Shown here piece by piece: positions 4,691 to 57,447 of a DNA stretch of 64,000 nucleotides. Source of the stretch: Burkholderia sp. Bp8992 (GTDB lineage: Bacteria > Pseudomonadota > Gammaproteobacteria > Burkholderiales > Burkholderiaceae); the NCBI RefSeq assembly GCF_003853705.1, contig NZ_QTQI01000007.1, positions 124,001-188,000 on the forward strand, given 5' to 3'. Each line of letters begins with the position of its first letter. The first letter of the stretch is position 1. A program made the translations under genes and the position numbers. The notes beneath the pieces were generated by a model. The model searched no databases and was not told where the DNA came from. It was given only the letters and a program-made list of their open reading frames with translations.

Positions 4691-4897
4691 TCAGTGAGGT
4701 GAGTCGATACGGGAGCGGGGCACGACGGTTGCGTCGTCGGGTTCGGTGTCGTCGCGTTCGTCCTGCGCGGGATCGTCGCGTTCCGCGAGTACCGCGTCGG
4801 CTTCGGCTGCGGCCCGGGCGGCGCGCATCGCGGTGCAGCGCTGAGCGTGCCGGATGTCCGACAGTATTCTCAGCAGCCGCGTGGTCTTGCTTTTCAT
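4691..4897 (-). CDS. Small hypothetical protein (68 aa)
   Basis: A 68-residue frame beginning MKSKTTRLLRIL, with a basic amphipathic N-terminus and an acidic middle (AERDDPAQDERDD). No domain is recognised. The ATG at 4897 follows GGGAG by five bases, a good ribosome binding site. That GGGAG forms one arm of a perfect 12-bp inverted repeat (4904-4980), so translation could be controlled by RNA folding. The gene lies downstream of the peptide permease on the same strand, about 120 bases away, and converges with the OpgC-like gene. Small size makes the call tentative; the unusual leader is the main support. Confidence 0.45.
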   Translation of the reverse strand: MKSKTTRLLRILSDIRHAQRCTAMRAARAAAEADAVLAERDDPAQDERDDTEPDDATVVPRSRIDSPH

Positions 4898-20031: not shown

Positions 20032-20113
20032 GCGGAGGCGGAGGCGGAGGCGGAGGCGGAGGCGGAGGCGGAAGCGGAGGCGGAAGCGGAGGCGGAGGCG
20101 GAAGCGGAAGCGA
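20032..20113. repeat. GCGGAG/GCGGAA hexanucleotide tandem repeat
   Basis: About 13-14 copies of a 6-bp unit, GCGGAG with occasional GCGGAA. Strand asymmetry is extreme: purine plus C on the plus strand, so the minus strand is pyrimidine-rich apart from the G opposite that C. Such a tract could slip in replication or form unusual DNA structures. Confidence 0.85.
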
Positions 20114-24538: not shown

Positions 24539-24841
24539 ATGGCGACCTACAGGCAACTGTCCGCACAGCTCGAACGGCTTCAGCAAAAGATCGACAAGGA
24601 ACGTGAAAAGGCGATTGCCGACGCGATTGCCGAAATCCGCGCGAAAATCGAGGAATACGACATTACGCCCGAGGAGCTCGGTTTTCGTCCGATCGGGGCC
24701 GCCGTTGCTGCCACCGCGAAGGCGAAGCGGTCGTTGCCGCCGAAGTACCTGAACCCGAAGACCGGCGAAACGTGGAGCGGCCGCGGACGGGCGCCGACCT
24801 GGCTCGGCAAGAACCGCGCACGTTTCCTGATCAAGGACTGA
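24539..24841 (+). CDS. H-NS family nucleoid-associated protein
   Basis: A 100-residue H-NS-type protein. Residues 1-50 form the coiled-coil oligomerisation domain ending EEYDITPEELGF. Residues 70-100 hold the DNA-binding domain PKTGETWSGRGRAPTWL, where the GRGRAP loop inserts in the minor groove of AT-rich DNA. Burkholderia genomes carry many such paralogues. A good intrinsic terminator follows (24876-24916), and between stop and terminator lies one copy of the CTCCCG-N6-CTCAC motif that is arrayed at 28 kb. Confidence 0.93.
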   Translation: MATYRQLSAQLERLQQKIDKEREKAIADAIAEIRAKIEEYDITPEELGFRPIGAAVAATAKAKRSLPPKYLNPKTGETWSGRGRAPTWLGKNRARFLIKD

Positions 24842-24858
24842 CTCCCGAAAATCCTCAC
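24842..24858 (+). repeat. Single CTCCCG-N6-CTCAC unit in the H-NS gene 3' region
   Basis: CTCCCG at 24842-24847 and CTCAC at 24854-24858 have exactly the box spacing of the 23-bp array at 28 kb. The unit begins at the base after the stop codon and precedes the terminator. Confidence 0.65.
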
Positions 24859-24875
24859 CTTTCGTGTGCCGACTG

Positions 24876-24916: not shown

Positions 24917-25413
24917 CGTGCAGTCGCCGAGCGATTTTCCCCGGTGAATGGATGCGCAATGCTGCGCAATTAACGGATCCCGTTTTGCGAATTCGCCGCG
25001 ATCCGGCCGCATATCGCGGCGAATTCCCGTAAACAGCCGCGCAATTTCGCAGCGCATGCGCATGGGCAATCGCGATTTTCGCGGTGCATGCGTGCCGCGG
25101 ATTCTCATCACCTTTCGCGTGTTCGCGTGCTGCGTCGTGCAAATCCCGAAGAGTCTCACCATGACTCCTGTAAATCCTCACCTTTGAGGAAGCGGACGCA
25201 GCGTCGTGCCGCGTTGCCTGCGTCGTGCGGCGATGCGTCGCCGCGTGTGTTGCAGGTCCATGGTGCAAGCGTTGACGCTCGTCGAACAGTCAGCCGTTCG
25301 GCATATAGGCAGTCGCATGCGCTTCGCCTATGCTTGGGATTCGCGTCGATCGGCACCCGGTCTCTCGGGCCGCATGCCGATCGTGTCGTCTTTCGTCACC
25401 GCAGGGAGCCGAT
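24917..25413. other. Intergenic region with further CTCACC motifs
   Basis: About 500 bases before the acetyltransferase gene. Near 25143-25182 there are two more CTCCYG-N6-CTCAC-like units 22 bp apart, and CTCATCACCTTT at about 25106 is a degraded copy. No coding sequence is convincing. Confidence 0.5.
25143..25182 (+). repeat. Two CTCCYG-N6-CTCAC-like units
   Basis: ATCCCG-N6-CTCAC (25143-25159) and CTCCTG-N6-CTCAC (25165-25181). The orientation is the same as the unit following the H-NS gene. Confidence 0.55.
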
Positions 25414-27771
25414 GTGACCGTTCGCCATCTCGATGCGTTGTTCCAGCCCAAGTCCGTTGCAGTCGTCGGCGCGTCATCGCGTGCGGGCAGTATCGGCGCG
25501 ATGGTGTGGTCGCGCGTGCTCGACGGCGCGTTCCAGGGGCCCGTGTGGCCCGTCAATCCGAAGTATCGCGAGCTGGACGGGCATGCGGTCGTGCCGGACG
25601 TCGACCGGCTGCCCGCGCCGCCGTCGGTTGCCGTGATCTGCACGCCGCCCGCGACCTGGGCCGGCATCGTGCGCAAGCTCGGGGAGCTCGGCACGCGCGT
25701 CGCGGTGATCGTCGGCGAGGCGCGCACGGATGCCGATCGCGCCGCCGTCGATCGTACGTTGAAGGCGGCGAAGCCGTTCGTGCTCCGTATCGTCGGGCCC
25801 GGCAGCCTCGGCGTGTTGTCGCCCGCACGGCATGCGCATTTCGGTGCGCCGGCCTATACGGCGCGATCGGGCGGCGTCGCGTGGGTGTCGCAATCGAATG
25901 CGCTGACGAACGCGGTGCTCGGCTGGGCCGATGCGCGCGGCCTCGGCTTTTCGCATGTCGTCGCGCTCGGCAGCGAATCCGACGTCGACGCCGGCGACGT
26001 GCTCGACTATCTGGCGAGCGATCCCGGCACGCGCGCGATCCTGCTCGAACTCGATACCGTGCGGGCCGCGCGCAAGTTCATGTCGGCCGCGCGTGCGGCC
26101 GCACGCAACAAGCCGGTCCTCGCGTTGCGCACCGGGCGCGCCGATCCCGGCGACGCACTCTATACGGCGGCATTCCAGCGCGCGGGCATGGTGCGTGTCG
26201 ATGCGCTCGACGATCTGCTCGACGAGATCGAGACGCTCGGCGTCGGCCGCGTGACTGCGCGCGGCGCGGCGACGCTCGTCACCAGCGATGCGGGTGTCGC
26301 GAAACTCGCGGTCGATGCGGTCGCCGAAGTGCGCGACGTGCTGGCCGACTGGTCGCCGGCGGCAACGTCGGCCGTGTCGGCCGCGCTGCCGCATCTCGCG
26401 GCGCCCGGCAATCCGCTGACGCTGGGCGACGACGCACGCCCCGAGCACTTTGCCGCGGCGATCAAGGCGCTTGCGCCGTTCCCGCAAACGGGCACGCTGT
26501 TCGTCGTCCATTCGACGTCCCACAGTGCACCGGCCGATTCGGTCGCGCGCACGCTGATCGACTCGCGGCAGTACGCGCATCGCGGCATCCTCGCGTGTTT
26601 CTTCGGTGCCGTCGACGCCGCGACGCGCGATGCGCTGCATGCGAACGGCATTCCCGTGCATACGACACCGCAGCGGCTCGCACGCGCGTATGCGCGTCTC
26701 GTCGACTACAACCTCGGGCGGCAACTGCTGATGCAGACGCCCGAAGGCACGCCGCCGCAGCCGGCCGAGTGCGTCGCTTCCGCGCAGGCGGAAGCGCGCC
26801 GCATGGTCGAAGCCGGCCAGCACGAGCTGGCCGGCGATGCCGCGCTGCGGTGGCTGTCCCATTTCGGCCTGCAGGGCGAGCAGGCTGCCGAGCCGGCCGG
26901 CAAGAAGGTTGTCGATGTCACGGTCGACATGTACGACGATTCGAACTTCGGTCCGGTGTTTCGCTATGCCGTGCCGCCCGCGGACGGCGTCTCGGCGCCA
27001 TTCGTCGTCTACGGCCTGCCGCCGCTGAACACCGTGCTTGCCCGCGCGGTGATGGAGCGCTCGCCGTATGCGCGCAGCACGCCCGTCGAGCCGACGCTCG
27101 ACGCATTGACGGCGTTGTCGCAGGTCGTCTGCGACGTGCGCGAAGTTGTCGCGCTGTCGGTCACGCTGCGCGTGCTGTCCGGCGGCGCGCGCGTGATCGC
27201 ACCGCGCATCACGCTGGCCACGGGGCGCAGCCGGCTCGCGATCATGCCGTATCCGCGGCACCTTGAACAGACGCTCGAGTGGCGCGGCGAGACGGTGACG
27301 ATCCGCCCGATCCGTCCGGAAGACGAGGCCGCGCACAATGAACTGCTCGCCGCGATGACGCCGGACGATCTGCGGATGCGTTTCTTCGGCGCGGTGCGCA
27401 GCTTCGATCACTCGCAGGTGGCGCGCATGACGCAGATCGATTACGACCGTGAGATGGCTTTCATCGTGTCGTTCACCGATGTGTCGGGGCGCGACCATAC
27501 GCTCGCGGTGGCGCGCGCGGTCGCCGATCCCGACAACGAGACGGCCGAGTTCGCGATCGCGGTACGCCCCGATCAGAAGGGCAAGGGGCTCGGCAGGCTG
27601 ATGATGGCCCGCATCATCGACTACGCGCGCTCGCGCGGCACTGCCTGGATGATCGGCGAGGCGCTGCGCGAGAATTCGGCGATGATCTCGCTCGCGAAGT
27701 CGTGCGGCTTTGCGGTGTCGAGCACGGAGGAGCCTGGCGTCGTGGGCTTCAGGATGAAGTTGCAGCCGTAG
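25414..27771 (+). CDS. CoA-binding / GNAT protein acetyltransferase (Pat-like)
   Basis: A 785-residue multidomain protein. The N-terminal CoA-binding Rossmann domain (SVAVVGASSRAGSIG, residues about 15-110) and the succinyl-CoA-ligase-like flavodoxin domains (about 120-430) resemble NDP-forming acyl-CoA synthetases. The middle (about 450-610) looks like a shortened, degenerate ATP-grasp. The C-terminal GNAT domain (about 620-780) has the RPDQKGKGLGRLMMARII acetyl-CoA loop. The layout recalls the lysine acetyltransferase Pat/PatZ/YfiQ, which silences acyl-CoA synthetases. The start is a GTG at 25414 behind GGGAGC; the frame extends further upstream without family similarity. Confidence 0.75.
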   Translation: MTVRHLDALFQPKSVAVVGASSRAGSIGAMVWSRVLDGAFQGPVWPVNPKYRELDGHAVVPDVDRLPAPPSVAVICTPPATWAGIVRKLGELGTRVAVIVGEARTDADRAAVDRTLKAAKPFVLRIVGPGSLGVLSPARHAHFGAPAYTARSGGVAWVSQSNALTNAVLGWADARGLGFSHVVALGSESDVDAGDVLDYLASDPGTRAILLELDTVRAARKFMSAARAAARNKPVLALRTGRADPGDALYTAAFQRAGMVRVDALDDLLDEIETLGVGRVTARGAATLVTSDAGVAKLAVDAVAEVRDVLADWSPAATSAVSAALPHLAAPGNPLTLGDDARPEHFAAAIKALAPFPQTGTLFVVHSTSHSAPADSVARTLIDSRQYAHRGILACFFGAVDAATRDALHANGIPVHTTPQRLARAYARLVDYNLGRQLLMQTPEGTPPQPAECVASAQAEARRMVEAGQHELAGDAALRWLSHFGLQGEQAAEPAGKKVVDVTVDMYDDSNFGPVFRYAVPPADGVSAPFVVYGLPPLNTVLARAVMERSPYARSTPVEPTLDALTALSQVVCDVREVVALSVTLRVLSGGARVIAPRITLATGRSRLAIMPYPRHLEQTLEWRGETVTIRPIRPEDEAAHNELLAAMTPDDLRMRFFGAVRSFDHSQVARMTQIDYDREMAFIVSFTDVSGRDHTLAVARAVADPDNETAEFAIAVRPDQKGKGLGRLMMARIIDYARSRGTAWMIGEALRENSAMISLAKSCGFAVSSTEEPGVVGFRMKLQP

Positions 27772-28050: not shown

Positions 28051-28330
28051 GGTGAGATTTTTCGGGAGCGGTAAGTGAGCGTTTCCGGGAGCGCGTGGTG
28101 AGCCGATACGGGAGCATTCGGTGAGCCTTCCCGGGAGTGGCCGGTGAGCCCCTGCGGGAGCCGCTGGTGAGCCTTTCCAGGACGTATCGGTGAGCGCTTG
28201 CGGGAGCATCCAGTGAGGACATTCGGGAGCCGTTGGTGAGCGTCTTCGGGAGCGTTGGGTGAGCTTGTTCGGGAGGTGTCGGTGAGTGCTTGCGGGAAGC
28301 TGAGGTGAGATTTTTCGGGAGCAGGCTGAT
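28051..28330 (-). repeat. Twelve-unit, exact 23-bp array of CTCCCG-N6-CTCAC
   Basis: On the plus strand GTGAG occurs at 28052 and every 23 bases to 28305, twelve times without a single spacing error. Each is followed after six bases by CGGGAG, exact in ten of twelve units. Bases between the boxes vary freely. The half-boxes GTGAGC and GGGAGC alternate every 12 and 11 bp, about one helical turn. On the minus strand all three frames stay open and encode the same 23-residue pattern. It lies 3' of the H-NS-related gene at 28415-28957. Confidence 0.9.
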
Positions 28331-28414: not shown

Positions 28415-28957
28415 TTACGCGGCGAGTTTCGACGCCGCGTCGTTCACCTGATCGCGCGAAATCGCGAGTTCGTCGAGGTGCGGATCGGCATAGACGGCGC
28501 CGGTTTCGCGCTCGAGGCGGGCGATCGTCAGCGCACAGCGCGCGGTGTCTTTCGGCATCGCGATGAAGCGCTTGATCGACTCGCCGGCCGTGAATGCTTC
28601 GAACAGCGCGCCGCGCACGTCGTCCGGAAGCGTCTTGGTCCATTGGTACGGCTTGCCGTTGAACGTGATCGACGGCGGCAGCGTGCGCTCCTTCTTGGTC
28701 GCCGTGATGAGCCCGTAGGTGCGGGCCGCGTCGCCGATCTGTTCGGGCGAGAAGAGTTCGTCAGGCGTGATGTCGAACTGCTCGATGTAGTTTTCGATCG
28801 TCTGCATTGCGGCAGCACGATCGTCGCGCTTCTGCTGCGCGCGCGCGACGATATCGCGCAGCTCGTCCGCTTCGTCGGGCGTGATCGTGAAGCTTGCCTG
28901 CTTCTGCTGAAGTTCGGAGAAACGCTGGAATTCTTGATCGTTCAGAAGTTTGGCCAT
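28415..28957 (-). CDS. H-NS-related N-terminal domain protein (hypothetical)
   Basis: A 180-residue soluble protein. Residues about 5-60 are helical and charged. The segment MQTIENYIEQFDITPDELF resembles the H-NS family linker (compare EEYDITPEELGF in the gene at 24539). The following KKERTLPPSITFNGKPYQW is like the start of an H-NS C-terminal domain but lacks the GRGRAP loop. The last 90 residues (KTLPDDVRGALFEAF onward) are unrelated to anything I recognise. The ATG at 28957 is chosen; ATG 28966 is possible. DNA-binding or H-NS-modulating activity is a guess. Confidence 0.6.
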   Translation of the reverse strand: MAKLLNDQEFQRFSELQQKQASFTITPDEADELRDIVARAQQKRDDRAAAMQTIENYIEQFDITPDELFSPEQIGDAARTYGLITATKKERTLPPSITFNGKPYQWTKTLPDDVRGALFEAFTAGESIKRFIAMPKDTARCALTIARLERETGAVYADPHLDELAISRDQVNDAASKLAA

Positions 28958-29141
28958 GACATCCATCGGACACGACGGCCGCGACAACCGGCCGTCGTAG
29001 TTTTTGAGAGGGCCGCTATTTTAGCGTAGCGCCGCGGGCGCACGATATGACACCGCATATCGCGTACCGCACGGGCGTCGCGCAACCGGGGGCCGGCGCT
29101 GCCGCGCCGCGCCCGGTGTGTTTCGTGGAGAAATCCGCGGG

Positions 29142-57230: not shown

Positions 57231-57386
57231 ATGAGCTTCATCCTCGCCCTGCTGCAAAAGATCGACGACCTGTTCGTGTCGCCGCACCTGCCCCTCGACG
57301 CCGAATACTCGTACGCAGCGCGTCATGCCGAAGCCGAGCGCGTGCGCCGTGCGCATCTCGTGCCGATCGTCCTGTACCGTCGCTGA
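57231..57386 (+). CDS. Small hypothetical protein (51 aa)
   Basis: A 51-residue protein (MSFILALLQKIDDLFVSPHL at the start, ending in VPIVLYRR). It has an amphipathic or weakly hydrophobic N-terminus and a charged middle (EYSYAARHAEAERVRRAHL). CAGGAG lies 8 bases before the ATG. Its stop codon TGA is the first base triplet of an 8-bp microsatellite. The upstream duplicated dyads suggest tight regulation. Small Arg-rich proteins of this type occur widely in Burkholderia, with no known function that I can assign. Confidence 0.65.
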   Translation: MSFILALLQKIDDLFVSPHLPLDAEYSYAARHAEAERVRRAHLVPIVLYRR

Positions 57387-57447
57387 TTCGCTGATTCGCT
57401 GATTCGCTGATTCGTTGATTCGCTGATTCGCTGATTCGCTGATTCGG
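57384..57447. repeat. TGATTCGC octanucleotide microsatellite
   Basis: Eight consecutive 8-bp units (57384, then every 8 bases), identical except unit four (T for C) and unit eight (G for C). It starts exactly at the stop codon of the 51-aa gene. Because 8 is not a multiple of 3, TGA appears in all three plus-strand frames. Confidence 0.9.

Follow-up and report, generated by a model that had tools for sequence, protein, structure and literature searches.

What is the strictly periodic array of bipartite repeats in a 64,000-nucleotide stretch of Burkholderia sp. Bp8992 DNA (contig NZ_QTQI01000007.1, positions 124,001 to 188,000; hereafter the window), and what could such an array do? The earlier note on this DNA, made from the sequence without database searches, stated that no known element type fits, iterons being found at origins, and singled out the array as the best candidate for an undescribed system. 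The first statement turned out to be wrong: there is very little room for doubt that the units are iterons for the initiator of this same replicon, the Rep3-family replication protein (Rep) of Burkholderia chromosome 2 (c2). The claim of an undescribed system is not borne out either, given that a c2 cluster is mentioned in passages of a published study (PMC4948915) and that distal initiator sites are known from the literature on Vibrio cholerae. The best overall explanation, to which we assign a probability of about 0.7, is that the array is a distal c2 iteron cluster that titrates and handcuffs Rep and delays re-initiation.

Structure of the array and identity of its units

The array consists of 12 GGTGAG-N6-CGGGAG units with a period of exactly 23 bp at positions 28051-28326 (276 bp) of the window, the units starting at 28051, 28074 and so on to 28304, with every step equal to 23 bp. 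The fixed period described in the earlier note was reproduced from the unit positions and by simulation: the longest chain of GTGAG at 23-bp steps comprises 12 copies in the window versus no more than 2 in any of 40 simulations of it under a first-order Markov model. GTGAG is retained in 12 of the 12 units, and CGGGAG, as had been reported, is exact in ten and nearly so in two (CAGGAC at 28166 and CGGGAA at 28281); the informative core over the units is GTGAG-N4-T-N-CGGGA. The motif is not limited to the array. With at most one core mismatch allowed, the window contains 16 sites in all, compared to 2 for the reversed control pattern, and four of the 16 lie away from the array (Table 1). The suggestion that the half-boxes face roughly one side of the helix is not strictly correct because, by simple arithmetic, 23/10.5 corresponds to 2.19 turns, that is, a shift of approximately 69 degrees per unit.

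The identity of the units becomes apparent from comparison with relatives. In the closest genome compared (G001), which has the same array and the same trio of minus-strand iterons, the highest density of the motif is at C77:15643-16951, immediately 5' of a gene (C77:17070-18437) whose product matches the Pfam domains Rep3_N and Rep3_C of plasmid-type replication initiators. The nearest NCBIfam models, RepM and RepE, are both far below the cut-off for this protein, and the best match among solved structures is a weak one, to the pi initiator (2nra, E = 0.0072). The rep gene was found in all 65 genomes of the genus that were searched. Its upstream region carries 19 motif sites, all on one strand within about 1.5 kb, in 24 of the 26 fully read loci, and 18 sites in the other two; these 26 come from a set of 30, four loci being left out for a misplaced anchor (two of the four showed 19 sites in a separate scan). 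In relatives, the cognate rep gene resides on the same replicon as the array and is preceded by the same motif. One array-bearing sequence (L119) is chromosome 2 of Burkholderia sp. MS389 (3,002,449 bases), and the contig G041:C2 carries rep 148 kb from the array locus. Across the eight genomes searched for the exact motif, 172 copies were detected versus 6 for the reversed control; the seven fully listed complete genomes (the listing for G059 is incomplete) contain 148 copies, the rep replicon having 133 of these, the third replicon 12 and the first 3.

For B. cenocepacia, passages of Du et al. 2016 (PMC4948915) report the c2 iteron consensus ctCCCGAAAAacCTCACCTtt, and the array core is identical to the reverse complement of this sequence; the A-rich flank of the published consensus is mostly missing from the array units. 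Because the motif coincides with both the origin iteron and the published c2 consensus, we consider the array to be a distal c2 iteron cluster. In the same paper, the legend of S1 Table refers to "a second c2 iteron cluster 140kb" away from the origin. The array almost certainly is the counterpart of that cluster of B. cenocepacia J2315, where the iteron likewise is the reverse complement and the distance of about 140 kb is comparable to the median of 153 kb found here; we infer the identity of the J2315 coordinates. The passages of PMC4948915 devote a single legend clause to the J2315 cluster, with no account of its structure, conservation or function.

The array shares the core of the origin iterons but does not look like an origin. 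There is no rep gene beside it among the open reading frames of the window and in the domain search, nor is there a DnaA box with at most one mismatch between positions 27000 and 29400, a weak negative given that the origin region itself contains only two one-mismatch boxes. The AT content of the array region is 38%, against 32% for the whole window and 44% upstream of rep; of the hallmarks of a replication origin, namely an adjacent rep, DnaA boxes and an AT-rich unwinding region, none was found, the DnaA-box part of this statement being weak. Origin iterons tend to have an A-rich 5' flank and an inner T run, which most array iterons lack, the first unit in the window being one that has both. 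Successive spacings at the c2 origin equal 22, 33, 44, 66 or 88 bp in 8 of 18 cases, the others not being multiples of 11. Judging by these differences in sequence, Rep may bind the array in a different or weaker mode than the origin. That the array is what remains of a second origin or of a plasmid replicon once captured, a reading that the clustering of iterons and the AT content above that of the window would suit, is very unlikely: in addition to the missing rep and (as weak evidence) the missing DnaA boxes, the AT content remains below the level upstream of rep, and the strong conservation of the boxes is unlike that of a relic.

All three minus-strand frames are open through the array, which on that strand follows the stop codon of the adjacent gene (hereafter the 28415 gene, after its position), as might be expected of a transcribed RNA element or a repeat-encoded peptide. 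This interpretation is the least probable of those considered and was rejected in both its forms: the 23-bp period shifts the reading frame in every unit, the search of Rfam yielded two sub-threshold matches to snoRNAs (E = 0.32 and 0.68), and identical motifs are present at the rep origin.

Conservation and position across the genus

The search of Burkholderia genomes that had been proposed for this pattern bore out the prediction in part. Orthologs of the 28415 gene are present in 65 of the 65 genomes, and the array lies beside the ortholog in 54, with 10-14 units in 51; the remaining 11 genomes have one or two sites at the same spot, and the spacing is not uniform. The longest cluster comprises 12 units in 30 genomes, 13 in nine, 11 in six, 14 in three, 10 in three, and 6, 20 and 23 in one each. 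The two largest arrays, of 23 (L202, G042) and 20 units (L201, G049), occupy the same place, and the array of G014 (L182) is eroded to 6 units. In the array-less genomes (G015, G016, G018, G022, G026, G029, G037, G040, G044, G052 and G054), the longest cluster consists of two sites in ten cases and of one site in the eleventh, with paired sites 22-34 bp apart; the three iterons on the side of the gene for an H-NS family protein, as in the window, are present in all four of these genomes that were searched whole. The identity of Rep to the query is 91-93% in exactly these 11 genomes and at least 95% in the rest and, judged by this measure, the array-less genomes look like one clade.

Among successive sites less than 60 bp apart in 53 arrays, 530 of 601 gaps equal 23 bp, 35 equal 24, 15 equal 22 and 21 have other lengths; the statement that no unit has gained or lost a base therefore is valid for the window but not for the genus. 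Pairwise diversity among 21 aligned arrays (20 genomes and the window, limited to arrays that fit 12 x 23 bp) amounts to 0.033 for the core boxes, compared with 0.23 and 0.41 for the inner and outer spacers, respectively, and 0.22 for the 85-bp flank, a contrast that is weakly biased by the choice of sites with at most one core mismatch. Spacer identity is 0.72 between orthologous units and 0.38 between different units, so that the units are old and have not been homogenised. Two claims of the earlier note, that the copies are old and that selection seems to have preserved the boxes along with their spacing, are upheld by these values, and we agree that cooperative protein binding along the DNA is the likely reason for this conservation. 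CRISPR (clustered regularly interspaced short palindromic repeats) arrays consist of near-identical repeats and unique spacers of roughly 30 bp that differ between strains. The array, with its degenerate 23-bp units and spacers that are orthologous across species, was rejected as a candidate of this type.

Outside the genus, an ortholog of the 28415 gene is present in 12 of the 14 genomes examined, in two of them as a partial match, and no iteron was present within about 1.5 kb at any of these 12 loci. The c2-type iteron occurs above the control level in ten of ten genomes of other genera, and no run of at least three iterons at 22-24 bp is located away from rep among the matches listed (all for seven genomes, 27 of 29 for G107, none for G155 and G113). 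A scan of genome contigs for arrays yielded 37 stretches, 33 of these in Burkholderia; the other four (Streptomyces, Paraburkholderia, Nocardia and Propionibacteriaceae) are short, have other unit sequences and scores of 11.5-14.9, and were dismissed as chance tandem repeats.

These loci also bear on the possibility that the array, bound by Rep or another protein, controls the 28415 or the H-NS gene or loops the region in nucleoid organization. The array adjoins the 28415 ortholog in every one of the 54 array-bearing genomes, and a 3-kb stretch that includes the H-NS gene is bordered by iterons at both ends; however, the array is located beyond the 3' end of the 28415 gene rather than at its promoter, and the 12 genomes of other genera have the ortholog without iterons beside it. 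Such a local role is unlikely. The proteins encoded at 28415 and 24539, which the earlier note had named as candidate array binders, find no support in the domain searches (the 28415 protein has no match in Pfam or NCBIfam) or in the loci of other genera, and were rejected in this capacity.

The position of the locus on c2 was measured in the 49 of 65 genomes in which rep and the locus are on one contig, the two being on different contigs in the other 16. They are 97.5-272.9 kb apart; the locus is downstream of rep in 45 of the 49 (median 150.9 kb), and in the other four it is on the other side but inverted, so that its orientation relative to the origin is identical in all 49. In the 41 array-bearing genomes of this set, the array is 103-238 kb from rep, the median being 153 kb over the 39 that have it on the downstream side.

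Possible role in the control of c2 replication

In these 41 genomes, the array combines initiator-type sites outside the origin with a distance short enough for early duplication, as would be appropriate for a titration locus. The identity of the units, the presence of rep on the same replicon in relatives and the conservation of the core can be read from the sequences, and from these we infer binding and function. Under the proposed mechanism, the c2 Rep would bind the array cooperatively. Located some 150 kb from the origin, the array would be copied soon after c2 initiation, its doubling would add 12 sites, a number comparable to the 19 at the origin, and free Rep would drop; Rep bound to the array would also pair with Rep bound to the origin (handcuffing). 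Titration and handcuffing together would delay re-initiation and help to hold c2 to one initiation per cell cycle. That the array acts in the negative control of c2 initiation is, taken by itself, probable.

The closest parallel comes from V. cholerae chromosome II, where the initiator RctB binds iterons and a 39-mer that are situated about 40 kb from the origin and inhibit replication, according to passages of Baek and Chattoraj 2014 (PMC3937223). As in Burkholderia, the initiator sites belong to the secondary chromosome itself and are near its origin but outside it; in contrast, the sequence of the RctB sites is different, and binding and titration have been demonstrated there and are only predicted here. 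Deletion of one distal RctB site caused no growth phenotype (PMC3937223) and, by analogy, a subtle effect would be expected for the array. Extra initiator sites beyond the minimal origin that lower initiation are also represented by datA of Escherichia coli and by plasmid incA and incC. Unlike the array, datA binds DnaA and promotes DnaA inactivation. The plasmid incA and incC iterons adjoin their rep genes.

Several observations weigh against this interpretation. Eleven of the 65 genomes manage with one or two sites and G014 with 6 units, so the large array is not essential to the genus. The array lacks the A-rich flank and long T run typical of the origin, and its 23-bp spacing differs from the mainly 22- and 44-bp spacing there. 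The near-constant distance between the array and rep may in part reflect ordinary conservation of gene order, and the lack of a growth phenotype in V. cholerae points in the same direction.

An opposite, positive role is improbable but somewhat less so than local regulation. The array would then be a checkpoint site, resembling DARS or crtS, at which Rep is remodelled or loaded and the passage of the fork licenses a later event. In favor of this possibility, the position and orientation of the array relative to the origin are kept in all 41 measurable array-bearing genomes, its 23-bp geometry is unlike that of the origin, and the literature on V. cholerae describes a chromosome I site that enhances chromosome II replication. 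Against it, the array is composed of ordinary iteron cores, and the iteron-type distal sites of V. cholerae, as described in the passages cited above, inhibit; being on c2 itself, the array cannot report on chromosome 1. The Vibrio crtS site is, like the array, away from the secondary origin and is bound, as predicted for the array, by the secondary initiator but, in the available descriptions, it is a 62-bp site on chromosome 1 that is not built of iterons, whereas the array shares its contig with the c2 rep.

We also looked on chromosome 1 for a conserved, crtS-like c2 iteron and rejected this possibility: the seven fully listed genomes have three exact sites there, in a search restricted to exact matches, so that a weaker site is possible. 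We attribute these sites to mobile DNA because the neighboring proteins match PHROGs phage families (replication protein, RusA resolvase, Mom-like and unknown) or, at the third site, a Pfam conjugation coupling protein; the flanks of two of the three have homologous counterparts in G001 and accordingly are not one-offs. Single exact c2 iterons are located beside RusA, replication-protein, Mom-like or coupling-protein genes at L048:2781, L215:1500, L047:2896, L216:1501 and L217:1501. Mobile elements may carry initiator sites.

Iterons beyond the array and the third replicon

The other iterons in the window and the neighboring genes are listed in Table 1. The iteron at the H-NS gene has an exact counterpart in all seven fully listed genomes, located on the strand opposite to the array at a distance of 3.2-3.4 kb; the one most distant from the array has an exact counterpart 25-37 kb from it in six of the seven (not in G013).

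Table 1. Iterons and genes in the window, and third-replicon (c3) regions with c2-type iteron pairs
Feature	Position	Strand or location	Evidence
12-iteron array, 23-bp period, core GTGAG-N4-T-N-CGGGA	28051..28326	+	motif agrees with the published c2 consensus (PMC4948915)
Isolated iteron, some 23 kb from the array, overlapping no clear gene function	4698..4716	+	motif scan
Isolated iteron at the 3' end of the H-NS gene	24841..24859	-	motif scan, comparison with relatives
Iteron, second of a pair 22 bp apart	25142..25160	-	motif scan; same pair in G001
First iteron of the same pair, one mismatch in the core	25164..25182	-	motif scan; same pair in G001
H-NS family protein gene	24539..24841	+	Pfam PF00816, E = 1.2e-11
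Gene between the two iteron groups: coenzyme A-binding/succinyl-coenzyme A-ligase-like domains and GNAT acetyltransferase	25330..27771	+	domain search
28415 gene, 3' end facing the array	28415..28963	-	no Pfam or NCBIfam match
c3 regions with the pair	L240, L242-L250, L252, L255-L257	upstream of c3 rep	motif scan

Other repeats in the window include a GCGGAG hexamer repeated about 13 times (20032-20112), the octamer TCGCTGAT repeated about 8 times with 96% matches (57380-57446), possibly a phase-variable tract, and 42/84-bp tandem repeats at the window edge (1-458), perhaps a repetitive coding segment.

The third replicon has a rep gene of its own, encoding a protein about 36% identical to the c2 Rep, and c2-type iterons are also found upstream of this gene. 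Of 20 c3 rep upstream regions fetched, 14 contain a pair, one (G009) a single site, and five (G065, G025, G064, G054 and G015) none. The two sites are 33 bp apart in 12 of the 14 regions and 34 and 32 bp apart in one each; the pair lies 1.6-1.8 kb upstream of rep in 13 and 3.1 kb upstream in one. Outside these 20, two regions fetched because of the pair have it as well (L044, 3487 and 3520; L218, 4981 and 5014). In the six regions scanned for both, the iterons proper to c3 (GGTANCC...TTATGGG type, at most 4 mismatches) are distinct from the pair; they occupy the forward strand between it and rep, fewer matches being present on the opposite strand. Across 11 regions with 33-bp pairs, diversity is 0.035 versus 0.484, a contrast biased by the prior choice of sites with at most one core mismatch.

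We found no description of c2 sites at the c3 origin in the literature searched, which included few subscription papers. The pair is a possible inter-replicon control site. More tentatively, the c2 initiator could be an inter-replicon controller that binds its own origin, the distal array and the c3 pair, and thereby couples c3 to c2. According to passages of a 2026 survey (PMC13342612), the third replicons of Burkholderia strains finish replicating before the chromosome, and any such coupling would have to accommodate this early completion.

Altogether, the array is real, conserved as if selected, and of a known kind, its existence in one species having been noted in one printed clause; the present analysis identifies it, describes its anatomy, position and distribution in the genus, and points to a possible link to c3. 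The timing of secondary chromosomes is known in detail for few models, V. cholerae in the first place, and the same survey (PMC13342612) notes that identifying secondary-chromosome timers in further systems would extend this knowledge. Coupling of c2 and c3, if true, would provide a route of coordination in a genus for which the accessible literature yielded no such mechanism. The array, with its 276 bp, offers a defined candidate regulator of Burkholderia chromosome 2 that could be deleted and is present in most of the genus, and the pair at the c3 origin is a short candidate site for the control of one secondary replicon by another.
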